Shown: positions 21,338 to 25,207 of the stretch, one piece after another
Layout: the number at the start of each line of letters is the position of its first letter
Position numbering within the stretch: the stretch's first letter is position 1
Source of the DNA: Gammaproteobacteria bacterium
GTDB taxonomy: Bacteria > Pseudomonadota > Gammaproteobacteria > Pseudomonadales > Pseudohongiellaceae
Reading direction: 5' to 3'
Length of the DNA stretch: 42,628 nucleotides
Assembly (NCBI GenBank): GCA_030147705.1
Contig: JASBUV010000258.1
Location: 1 to 42,628, forward strand
Notes under the pieces: generated by a model
Database searches by the model: none
Told to the model about the DNA's origin: nothing
Seen by the model: the letters and a program-made list of their open reading frames with translations, nothing else
Translations under genes and position numbers: made by a program

Positions 21338-22159
21338 ATGACAGGTGTTCAGACAGTGGCACACACGCAGTTCTCGTTTGCTCCGGCCTCGCTGGCCGGC
21401 CTGATAGCGCTGGCTGTGGCGTGGCCGACGGCCAGTCTGGCGCAGATGCCCGAGCACTCACAGGCGATCAGCGTTGGTAGTTACTTTGCAAGAGGGGATT
21501 TCGGTGCCGACGTGGAAACCCGCATTCGTTACTTTCCCTTGAGTTACGAATACAGCAACTCGAAATGGACGCTGCAGGCCACCGCTTCACGTCTCAGCGT
21601 GTCGGGCCTTGGTAATGTACTGGTCAACGTGGGCGGAGTTACCCAGGCTGTCGCGGGCACAGAACTGGTTACCCAGAGCGGCGCGGGGGATACGGTACTA
21701 ACGGGGATCTATCATCTGGCCCCCATAGGACAGGTGTTTTTCGATCTGCGCATTGATGCGAAGCTGCCAACTGCCGACGAATCCAGAGCGCTCGGCACAG
21801 GAGAATTCGATGCCTCTGTACAGCTGGACGCGTCGATGAGCCTTACTAATACAGCTGTGTTTGCGAGTCTCGGATACAGCGATCGGGGTAAATCAAGTCT
21901 CTATCCCGGCTTGCAAGACTCGGTCTATACCCAACTCGGTTTCGCAAAGCCGGTGAACGAATCGGTCTCAATTGGCGCGTTCTACAACTATCGTCAGGCG
22001 GCGTCGGCCTTCTCAACAGAGAGTCATGAATTGAGCCCATACGTCAGCTGGCAGTTAACCGGGAACTGGAGTTTTACCGCATTGGCCGTTTTCGGGATGA
22101 CAGATGCCAGTCCTGATACTGCAGTCATGGGCCAGCTGCGTTACAGCTGGGCACGCTGA
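21338..22159 (+). CDS. Putative outer-membrane beta-barrel (MetA-pathway/transporter-like) protein
   Basis: Signal peptide ending SLAQ, amphipathic beta-strand pattern, PLSYEYSNSKWTLQATASRL, LPTADESRALGTGEFD, C-terminal QLRYSWAR. Confidence 0.65.
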   Translation: MTGVQTVAHTQFSFAPASLAGLIALAVAWPTASLAQMPEHSQAISVGSYFARGDFGADVETRIRYFPLSYEYSNSKWTLQATASRLSVSGLGNVLVNVGGVTQAVAGTELVTQSGAGDTVLTGIYHLAPIGQVFFDLRIDAKLPTADESRALGTGEFDASVQLDASMSLTNTAVFASLGYSDRGKSSLYPGLQDSVYTQLGFAKPVNESVSIGAFYNYRQAASAFSTESHELSPYVSWQLTGNWSFTALAVFGMTDASPDTAVMGQLRYSWAR

Positions 22160-22177: not shown

Positions 22178-23110
22178 TCAGAGTTTGAGAGGTTGTATGC
22201 GCGGTGGCAGCAGACCAGCACGCTGCACAGGGCGAACCCTCTGCATTGTGGGTAATTCAGGCCGTTGTACCCGATCTGGTCGCTGAGTACGTGCAGCGAA
22301 GTCACCGTGTTCCTCTGTGGGTGACGATTGCAGCGAGCGTTGCGTATCAAGCGAGTTTGATTCCCCAGCTGTAGTGAGAGACAGAGCGGCCAGTTCCGAC
22401 TCGTTGCCAGTACTGCTCACCGTACGCTCCTGAGCCAGAAATTGACTCAATGCTGGCCAGGAAACCGTGTCATCAACTGTGTCATCAAGGCTCGCCGGCT
22501 CAGCGTGTGGAGATGCGACTGCTAATGCGATGAACTCGTCAGAAACCGGACTCGCACTCGAAGCTGCAGACTCAGACGAGGTGGCGAGGGCAACAGAGTC
22601 AGTGCTATCTGCCGGAATTGACTCGAATGCTTCGTCGTTTAATGCGATCGCCAGTTCATCCATTTCAAACTGAATTTGTTCTGTAATCAGAATCGCAGAA
22701 GAATCTCGTGTTATCTCGCCTGCTCGGACGAACTTGGCCGGGGAGGGAAGTGGCTTGCTCTCTACCGGGCGCGCAGCAGGAATATCCAGGTCGAGTGACT
22801 TGCCGATCGCGCGATCAAGGTCAGCTGCACGATGATAAATTGTCAGTTCTGACGCTGGCTCATCAGTGCGCGAAGCGGGTTCGCTATAGCCAAGAAAGGG
22901 TCTGAAACCCGTTCCGCCCAGACCGCTTTCACTTCCCGGCGCAGGAACACGACCCGTGCCACCAAAGCCACTGCCCTCATCATCGCCGCCACCGAAACGG
23001 ACAAAGCCGGCACTGGGGAGGTTGATGAGTAGCAATGCCAATAGCAGGCCTGCCAACAGCAAACGATGGCGAGTACTGAGTTGTTGAGCTGATTGCAAGA
23101 ACTGGATCAT
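22178..23110 (-). CDS. Membrane-anchored hypothetical protein with repeated SG[FL]GGTG motifs and Arg/Pro-rich C-terminus
   Basis: N-terminal TM (LLLAGLLLALLLINLPSAGF), GSGFGGTGR and ESGLGGTGF, acidic Ser/Ala-rich middle, RPDRVQRPELPTMQRVRPVQRAGLLPPRIQPLKL tail. Confidence 0.7.
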   Translation of the reverse strand: MIQFLQSAQQLSTRHRLLLAGLLLALLLINLPSAGFVRFGGGDDEGSGFGGTGRVPAPGSESGLGGTGFRPFLGYSEPASRTDEPASELTIYHRAADLDRAIGKSLDLDIPAARPVESKPLPSPAKFVRAGEITRDSSAILITEQIQFEMDELAIALNDEAFESIPADSTDSVALATSSESAASSASPVSDEFIALAVASPHAEPASLDDTVDDTVSWPALSQFLAQERTVSSTGNESELAALSLTTAGESNSLDTQRSLQSSPTEEHGDFAARTQRPDRVQRPELPTMQRVRPVQRAGLLPPRIQPLKL

Positions 23111-23142
23111 AGTTGTCTGGGTTCAGAGTTGTCTGGGTTCAG
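23111..23142. repeat. Perfect 16-bp tandem duplication
   Basis: AGTTGTCTGGGTTCAG twice (23111-23126, 23127-23142), abutting the minus-strand start codon of the GGTG protein. Confidence 0.9.
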
Positions 23143-23178
23143 AGTGTTCTCGAGGGAGTCTTGAAGCCCTGGAATCTC

Positions 23179-24072
23179 TCAAGAATCATTCACCTCGTTA
23201 TTAGGCTTTTGATCAGCCTTCTCATTACGCTTGCCCGAATCACTCAATTTGGCGTGGTAATTAAAGACGCCGAAATTGATCCTGTGGTTTGCAGTTTCGT
23301 TATTCTGATCCTGTTGCTGTAGTCGCAGCGCCGCTTTGTTCATTTCGGTCAGGGCCTGCATGCCCAATTCTTCCGCTAACTGTCGCAGCTGTTCGACGGA
23401 GGCCGGAGACAAGCCATCATAATAAACACTCCTGTCAAAATAGGAAGGTTTATGCCCCGTCAGGTTATGCGCGCCGGCGGCGATATGATCGTGCAGGTTT
23501 TTGCCAAAGAAGAAGGCTTTCTCATCGAATCCCGTATCAGGGGTAAATGCACCGGTATTGAGCGTGACATGATCATCCGTTACCTGGGCGACTCCAAGAC
23601 GCAACCACTCGTCCAAAATCACACGTGGTCGAATGTCCTGGCGCACCACGCGAGTCACCAGCTGGTCAAACTCGGAAGGGCTTCCTTCCTGACTTTTGAT
23701 TGTGAGAGGGCGAGGTGAGCCGTCGTCATTCTGAAGTGCAGGTTCACCCATCCAATGGCCAATCAGCTGTGCACCAATTGAGATGTTACTTGGCGTGCCT
23801 GAAGTGTCTTCTGGCTCAGCGCGAAGACGCTTTACATCTTTACGATGGATGCCGGTAAGCAGGTTGATGCGGCTGTCAGACTGGCGCTTGCCGGGTACCT
23901 GCATTTCTTCCTCCGCAACCGAGACGTAGATCGGTTTCAGCATGGCAGCCAGTTGCGGATAGGTGATTTGCTTATGCAAAAGAAGACGCACCATCGGGCG
24001 CAGTAGTTTCTGCAAGGCTTTGAGCAGAGAGGCTGGTGGAGAGCCCGGCGAATTGTCAGTGCTGCTGTTCAT
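23179..24072 (-). CDS. DUF6502-like protein, putative HTH DNA-binding regulator
   Basis: LLRPMVRLLLHKQITYPQLAAMLKPIYVSVAEEE...SRINLLTGIHRKDVKRLR; SxxxLTGIHRKDV resembles an HTH; family name assigned from memory. Confidence 0.7.
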   Translation of the reverse strand: MNSSTDNSPGSPPASLLKALQKLLRPMVRLLLHKQITYPQLAAMLKPIYVSVAEEEMQVPGKRQSDSRINLLTGIHRKDVKRLRAEPEDTSGTPSNISIGAQLIGHWMGEPALQNDDGSPRPLTIKSQEGSPSEFDQLVTRVVRQDIRPRVILDEWLRLGVAQVTDDHVTLNTGAFTPDTGFDEKAFFFGKNLHDHIAAGAHNLTGHKPSYFDRSVYYDGLSPASVEQLRQLAEELGMQALTEMNKAALRLQQQDQNNETANHRINFGVFNYHAKLSDSGKRNEKADQKPNNEVNDS

Positions 24073-24093
24073 GAATTGCAGTATATCGAATTG

Positions 24094-24110
24094 GTGGGAA
24101 AATATCCCAC
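24094..24110. promoter_or_regulatory. Operator-like palindrome copy 1
   Basis: GTGGGAAAATATCCCAC: 6-bp arms, 5-bp spacer. Confidence 0.75.
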
Positions 24111-24141
24111 ATTAAATTTGCCCAAACTGTGATGCAGTCTA

Positions 24142-24170
24142 TTGACGTGGGAATTATTCCCACCTATGAT
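24142..24170 (+). promoter_or_regulatory. Near-consensus sigma70 promoter for the alpha/beta hydrolase with operator palindrome in its spacer
   Basis: TTGACG (24142-24147), 17 nt, TATGAT (24165-24170); perfect palindrome GTGGGAATTATTCCCAC at 24147-24163. Confidence 0.75.
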
Positions 24171-24214
24171 GAGTAAACCTGAAAACCTGTGGTTTGTCAC
24201 CAGGAACCGGCCAG

Positions 24215-25207
24215 ATGTCGACGCATACAGTTTCTTCACCAGTTATTACCCCGCAGATCCTGGATGCAGCGCTGCCAATGGATTCGATGCAGAAAGCAAA
24301 ACCCGATCAGGCTGATTCATCCTCTCCGGAGTATTTTTACTATAAAGACTATCGGCTGGCTTACGCAGAATATGGGGCTGCAAAGGGCACGCCTGTTTTC
24401 TATTTTCATGACAGCGGCAGCTCCCGCCTGGAAGCCGAGCTGTTTCATCAATCAGCGCAGCGCAATGGCTTTCGGCTGATCGTTCTCGATCGTCCCGGCA
24501 TCGGTAAATCAGACTTTTTCGTCTGTGCGCGCCCTGATGATTTCTGTGCCGCAGTAGCAGCATTCGCAGATGCAAAAGGGCTCAAGCACTATGGTGTGAT
24601 GTCTCTTGGCGCTGGCGGAATCTATGCGCTGACTCTTGCGCATATGAACCCGGATAATGTCCTGTTCAAACTGAGTCTCGCCGGCGTGCCCGGGAGTGTG
24701 TTCAACGAGCAGGGGTCTGTGTCCTATTCTGCGACTTGCTGGAATGAGTTGACCCCCATGCTGGTGAAGCTCCTGGTGCGCATCAAACACCGTTTTATGC
24801 GTGCTGATCCAGTCTCCTCGATCCGGCACCTGGAGCAGCATCTTTGCGCCGCTGATCGACACTCACTCGCTGATGACAGTCTATTCCATACGCTCGCGCG
24901 AGATCTTGAAGAAGCAATAAGCAGGGGCTATGAAGGGATTGCACAAGACATTGCCCTGAGTTACAGAAAACTCGATTTTCGTCTGCAAGAAGTCACTGTG
25001 CCTACGGAGATCTGGCAAGGCGAAACAGACCGGCTGTCGCAACGATCAGATTGTGAATTTATGACGGCTCGATTGCCGAATGCCCGATTTCACCGGGTAC
25101 CTGGCCGCGGCCACTTCTTCTTCATGCACCGGATGGATACGGTGTTCGGCGAATTGCGCAGTGCGCTGTCAACCTTCTCTGGCAGGCTCGCTCGCCACGC
25201 AGCATGA
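24215..25207 (+). CDS. Alpha/beta-hydrolase fold protein
   Basis: VFYFHDSGSSRLEAELFHQSAQRNGFRLIVLDRPGIGKSD, MSLGAGGIYALTLAHMNPD, WQGETDRLS, VPGRGHFFF; ATG 24215 with AGGAA upstream. Confidence 0.85.
   Translation: MSTHTVSSPVITPQILDAALPMDSMQKAKPDQADSSSPEYFYYKDYRLAYAEYGAAKGTPVFYFHDSGSSRLEAELFHQSAQRNGFRLIVLDRPGIGKSDFFVCARPDDFCAAVAAFADAKGLKHYGVMSLGAGGIYALTLAHMNPDNVLFKLSLAGVPGSVFNEQGSVSYSATCWNELTPMLVKLLVRIKHRFMRADPVSSIRHLEQHLCAADRHSLADDSLFHTLARDLEEAISRGYEGIAQDIALSYRKLDFRLQEVTVPTEIWQGETDRLSQRSDCEFMTARLPNARFHRVPGRGHFFFMHRMDTVFGELRSALSTFSGRLARHAA

Follow-up and report, generated by a model that had tools for sequence, protein, structure and literature searches.

Autoregulated helix-turn-helix repressors, as known from TetR, MarR and GntR loci, are encoded divergently from their target gene, have palindromic operators inside both promoters and control a local regulon. 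The DUF6502 locus described here, located in the 42.6-kb stretch of DNA that was analyzed as a whole (hereafter, the window), shares this arrangement, although the overall architecture of the DUF6502 protein differs from that of the three families and the protein had no match to any of them in Pfam or NCBIfam. The entry of the DUF6502 family (PF20112) gives nothing on function, and our literature searches returned no paper naming DUF6502, PF20112 or IPR045445 and no title about a GTGGGA/TCCCAC motif. Likewise, no solved structure related by sequence to DUF6502 was found. Here the family is assigned a predicted role as a helix-turn-helix autorepressor with a decoded operator.

A second described system that invites comparison is HetR, the cyanobacterial heterocyst regulator, which is inhibited by an RGSGR peptide and controlled by peptide precursors. 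The two proteins are similar in length. The target of HetR is a 17-bp G-rich inverted repeat, GAGGGGTCTAACCCCTC (PMC4192349), with a required GGG-N5-CCC core (PMC4192349; PMC4649674), whereas the corresponding bases of the DUF6502 operator are spaced as GGG-N7-CCC.

Organization of the DUF6502 locus

The DUF6502 gene of the window (23179-24072, minus strand; 297 aa) was assigned to PF20112 with 116.4 bits against a cut-off of 27 (E = 1.4e-33), the alignment covering positions 5-260 of the 268 in the model. A helix-turn-helix was predicted at residues 66-85, DSRINLLTGIHRKDVKRLRA (23818-23877, minus strand), corresponding to helices 66-73 and 77-85 of an AF2 model with a pLDDT of 82 and block means of 81-93 at this element. 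The same helix-turn-helix was present in the AF2 model of an Aromatoleum protein (pLDDT 85). Residues G74, H76, R77 and K78 were invariant in the family alignment, and H76-R77-K78 belong to the recognition helix.

The preliminary description of this DNA had reported two GTGGGA-N5-TCCCAC sites with centers 53 bp apart, and the window sequence bears this out exactly. The DUF6502-proximal operator O1, GTGGGAAAATATCCCAC, lies at 24094-24110 (center 24102) and reads GTGGGATATTTTCCCAC on the DUF6502 strand; its 6-bp arms are perfect and its spacer is asymmetric. The hydrolase-side operator O2, GTGGGAATTATTCCCAC, lies at 24147-24163 (center 24155) and is a perfect palindrome about a single central base. 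The distance between centers corresponds to 5.05 helical turns. No other match to the motif occurred in the window even when two mismatches were allowed; since shuffled versions of the window gave on average 1.4 matches at two mismatches, it is the exactness of O1 and O2 that is informative. A genome-wide search had also been proposed, and it revealed that the motif is not common: the 2.66-Mb draft genome (78% complete) contained three exact copies, and no exact site for a reversed control pattern. The third copy (C32:4354-4370, or L001:1501-1517) follows a cytochrome-c-type (CcoP-like) ORF and immediately precedes another ORF, which starts with MDEYTEITKVW and is truncated by the contig end.

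Both operators are embedded in promoter-like sequences. The divergent hydrolase-fold gene is preceded on the plus strand by TTGACG (24142-24147), a -35 hexamer conserved in orthologues that overlaps the first G of O2, and by the -10 hexamer TATGAT (24165-24170), which together form a TTGACG-17-TATGAT promoter (24142-24170, 10/12) whose spacer is filled by O2. On the opposite strand, O1 lies just upstream of the -10 hexamer TATACT (24080-24085, minus strand) of a DUF6502 promoter with a poor -35 element. This hexamer is placed 7 bp before the ATG, and the DUF6502 mRNA is therefore predicted to be nearly leaderless; a similar distance was seen in many relatives. Among the orthologous distal sites, 32 of 42 had an abutting TTGAC and a TANNNT hexamer 1-3 bp after the operator. 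Most of the remaining distal operators are situated directly after a TATACT hexamer. One sub-clade has its distal site immediately behind a -10 element instead of in a spacer, a position still compatible with repression. The proximal operator was followed after 6-8 bp by a -10-like hexamer in all loci compared (41/41).

The divergent gene (24215-25207, plus strand), the predicted target of O2, encodes a protein with an alpha/beta-hydrolase fold (PF00561, E = 5e-12). According to an alignment with PDB relatives, the position of the nucleophilic serine is occupied by glycine (SLGAGG). Serine was absent from this position in all 27 family members aligned, most of which had glycine or alanine, and the catalytic histidine varied among them. 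This protein is thus probably a non-catalytic pseudo-enzyme, to judge from its residues, and perhaps acts as a ligand binder.

Downstream of DUF6502, a gene for a Gly-rich membrane or secreted protein with the motifs GSGFGGTG and ESGLGGTG (22178-23110, minus strand) probably forms one operon with it; the intervening DNA contains two tandem copies of a 16-bp unit, GTTGTCTGGGTTCAGA (23112-23143). The Gly-rich protein appears to be the counterpart of the DUF5666 proteins (PF18914) with GGTG motifs that are encoded beside DUF6502 in many proteobacteria, and it shares these motifs but has no Pfam DUF5666 match. The DUF5666-type counterparts (D2/D3 proteins, loci L105-L205) had one to eight copies of G[IFLM]GGTG each. 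A further conserved neighbor, convergent with the Gly-rich gene, encodes an outer-membrane-protein-like product (21338-22159, plus strand; Phenol_MetA_deg/DUF3187-like).

Conservation of the operator and its covariation with the recognition helix

A contig scan recovered 80 DUF6502 loci labeled as gamma-, beta- and alphaproteobacteria and as metagenome-assembled genomes of Myxococcales and Marinimicrobia. Between -300 and +30 relative to the DUF6502 gene, GTGGGA-N5-TCCCAC was exact in 52 of these loci, within one mismatch in 71 and within two in 78, so that the motif is indeed present in orthologous intergenic regions, as the regulatory role suggested earlier for the two sites would lead one to expect. 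Each of 29 permuted-arm controls gave 0/80 loci at up to one mismatch. More distant loci, mostly with 44-55% protein identity, still carried the motif, 11 of the 33 exactly and 14 with one mismatch. Across orthologous sites the A/T spacer was variable and the arms were near-invariant.

The motif and the gene also occur together. Of 137 genomes of the family to which the window belongs, where the named relatives are Pseudohongiella, 64 had DUF6502, 57 had the exact motif and 56 had both, that is, 56/64 genomes with DUF6502 against 1/73 without it (Fisher p = 1.9e-28, without phylogenetic correction). In the sole motif-bearing genome without DUF6502 (G094) the motif is at contig position 41 and is followed by the hydrolase gene; because the site is at a contig end, the absence of DUF6502 is most likely explained by a gap in the assembly. 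The DUF6502 genomes without an exact motif came mostly from two genera, and separately recovered loci of these genera carried one-mismatch variants such as GTGGGATTTTTTCCCTC. In the same genera (L069, L073 and L149), an MMPL/RND-type transporter replaces the divergent hydrolase gene. More broadly, DUF6502 was found in 90/321 sampled genomes of the class Gammaproteobacteria, about a quarter, and in none of the viral contigs searched.

Sites are few in each genome. Only two exact copies, both at the DUF6502 locus, were found in Pseudohongiella nitratireducens, and 15 distant genomes had 0-3 copies of GTGGGA-W5-TCCCAC, nearly all at this locus, and never the reversed control. Since most genomes have one to three sites, nearly all of them at the locus, DUF6502 appears to act locally on a handful of targets. 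Its small regulon nevertheless extends beyond the DUF6502 locus in some genomes. Additional exact sites were observed in some Pseudohongiellaceae (L085-L087, L089, L090, L092 and L094), where they precede either a gene for a GNAT acetyltransferase or one for a member of a small family of secreted proteins. In three alphaproteobacterial genomes (L250, L251 and L252), an exact site and a TTGGGA-type site lie between genes that we call MetY-like and ureidoglycolate-lyase-like, names read from the sequence alone.

The identity of the regulator was addressed by comparing residues 76-78 of DUF6502 with the upstream palindrome in 172 loci pooled from several surveys. Loci with the triplet HRK had GTGGGA-N5-TCCCAC at up to one mismatch in 102 of 121 cases (75 exact), and four further loci had an exact ATGGGA-N5 site, leaving 15 of the 121 without a site within one mismatch of either form. 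Proteins with QRR were associated with exact ATGTGY-N5-RCACAT (9/9, the QRR loci of the dense sample all coming from one family), those with QRK with ATGGGT-N5-ACCCAT (2/2), and those with TRK or SRK with TTGGGA-N6-TCCCAA (17/26), GTGGGA being found in 0/26. The operator predicted from the helix was present in 130/158 loci, compared with a maximum of 93 in 2000 label permutations, and in 28/37 non-HRK loci, compared with a permutation maximum of 22; the non-HRK operator classes were derived from the same loci on which they were counted, and related loci are not independent. In shuffled upstream DNA, the HRK operator was encountered in 2/605 cases and those of the other classes in none. The cleanest contrast was offered by a single family (f56), in which HRK members carry one operator and QRR members another, each the one typical of its triplet. 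At the level of sequence, therefore, operator specificity follows the recognition helix of DUF6502 with almost no cross-over, and this covariation makes DUF6502 the likely binder of the sites.

Predicted autorepression and alternative readings

Taken together, conservation, co-occurrence, near-uniqueness per genome and helix-operator covariation strongly support the earlier proposal that both genes are under a dedicated regulator, which is very likely DUF6502 itself. In the mechanism that we favor, to which we give a probability of roughly 0.85, DUF6502 would be a dimeric helix-turn-helix repressor of its own unit and of the divergent gene through O1 and O2. Each half of the dimer would read one GTGGGA arm by means of the recognition helix HRKDVKRLR. 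A dimer on O2 would cover the spacer between the -35 and -10 hexamers of the hydrolase-fold gene, and a dimer on O1 would cover the -35 region of the promoter that drives DUF6502 and the Gly-rich gene, keeping both units silent until a signal releases the protein. The operators lie inside two divergent promoters, where a bound dimer would exclude RNA polymerase, which makes autorepression of both units the best explanation. Physical binding, dimerization and a releasing signal are inferred here, as is repression rather than activation, which is deduced from promoter geometry.

A protein bound at a promoter is usually, but not always, a repressor, and DUF6502 might instead activate one or both promoters or act as a dual regulator. 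This appears unlikely. The weak -35 element of the DUF6502 promoter is of the sort often seen in activator-dependent promoters; however, the -35 and -10 hexamers on either side of O2 are good ones, and a dimer occupying the spacer between them should obstruct RNA polymerase. Spacer-binding activators of the MerR type are the exception to such blocking, and their promoters have lengthened spacers of 19-20 bp, whereas the spacer of the hydrolase promoter is 17 bp and not lengthened.

The preliminary description had further suggested that the two operators act jointly, by looping or by cooperative binding on one face of the DNA. The 53-bp spacing of the window, close to five turns, would suit this idea, as would the spacings of 41, 52-53 or 63 bp in several relatives and a phasing to 10.5 bp over all 31 loci with paired sites (p ~ 0.003, relatedness not corrected). 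Nevertheless, the spacing in these 31 loci ranged from 30 to 101 bp, including values of 55, 58, 88 and 91 bp, and the phasing dropped to p ~ 0.22 when the 19 distinct spacings were considered. Many loci have a single operator, and each site is tied to its own promoter. Because one site per promoter already explains the presence of two sites, looping is not needed, and joint action of the operators is improbable.

A further question is whether DUF6502 is related to HetR, as a proteobacterial protein with the same fold and a related G-rich palindrome, and whether the neighboring GSGxGGTG protein gives rise to a peptide that would free the regulator from DNA. HetR (3qod) was the top PDB hit of both AF2 models in Foldseek, at non-significant values (E = 0.05 and 0.1, probability 0.72 and 0.69, TM ~0.33). 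Besides, the Gly-rich protein loosely resembles the precursors that control HetR, although its motif is GSGxGGTG and not an RGSGR of the HetR type. The hhalign profile comparison with HetR scored below shuffled HetR controls (probability 0.1), and none of 54 DUF6502 members matched the Pfam HetR domains (Peptidase_S48/HetR_C). Despite the two Foldseek hits, membership of DUF6502 in the HetR family was rejected on the profile comparison, and we retain the wider kinship, including the peptide precursor, as a lead of low probability; if true, it would represent a HetR/PatS-like peptide-controlled switch outside cyanobacteria.

Binding of DUF6502 being a prediction, the sites could in principle be recognized by an unrelated regulator encoded elsewhere, with DUF6502 as merely a conserved target gene. 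This is very improbable, considering that the operator changes with the recognition helix of DUF6502 over the 172 loci and that relatives without the gene essentially lack the motif as well. Finally, O1 is scored as a stem resembling a terminator on the plus strand, but the idea that the palindromes function in RNA, as hairpins or terminators, and not as sites for a protein carries next to no weight, given that the spacer varies between near-invariant arms, that the arms change only together with the protein helix and that O2, lying inside a promoter spacer, is not transcribed from that promoter.

Implications for the DUF6502 family

Autorepression by DUF6502, as proposed above, would link a regulator to a conserved and so far unexplained gene set that includes the Gly-rich/DUF5666 secreted protein and the outer-membrane protein. 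The correspondence between helices and operators amounts to a specificity code, in which a few residues of the recognition helix are matched by defined base changes in a fixed palindrome of 17-18 bp, and the family is predicted to be a source of compact orthogonal repressor-operator pairs. Overall, these results turn DUF6502 from a family of unknown function into a testable family of transcription factors with predicted operators.
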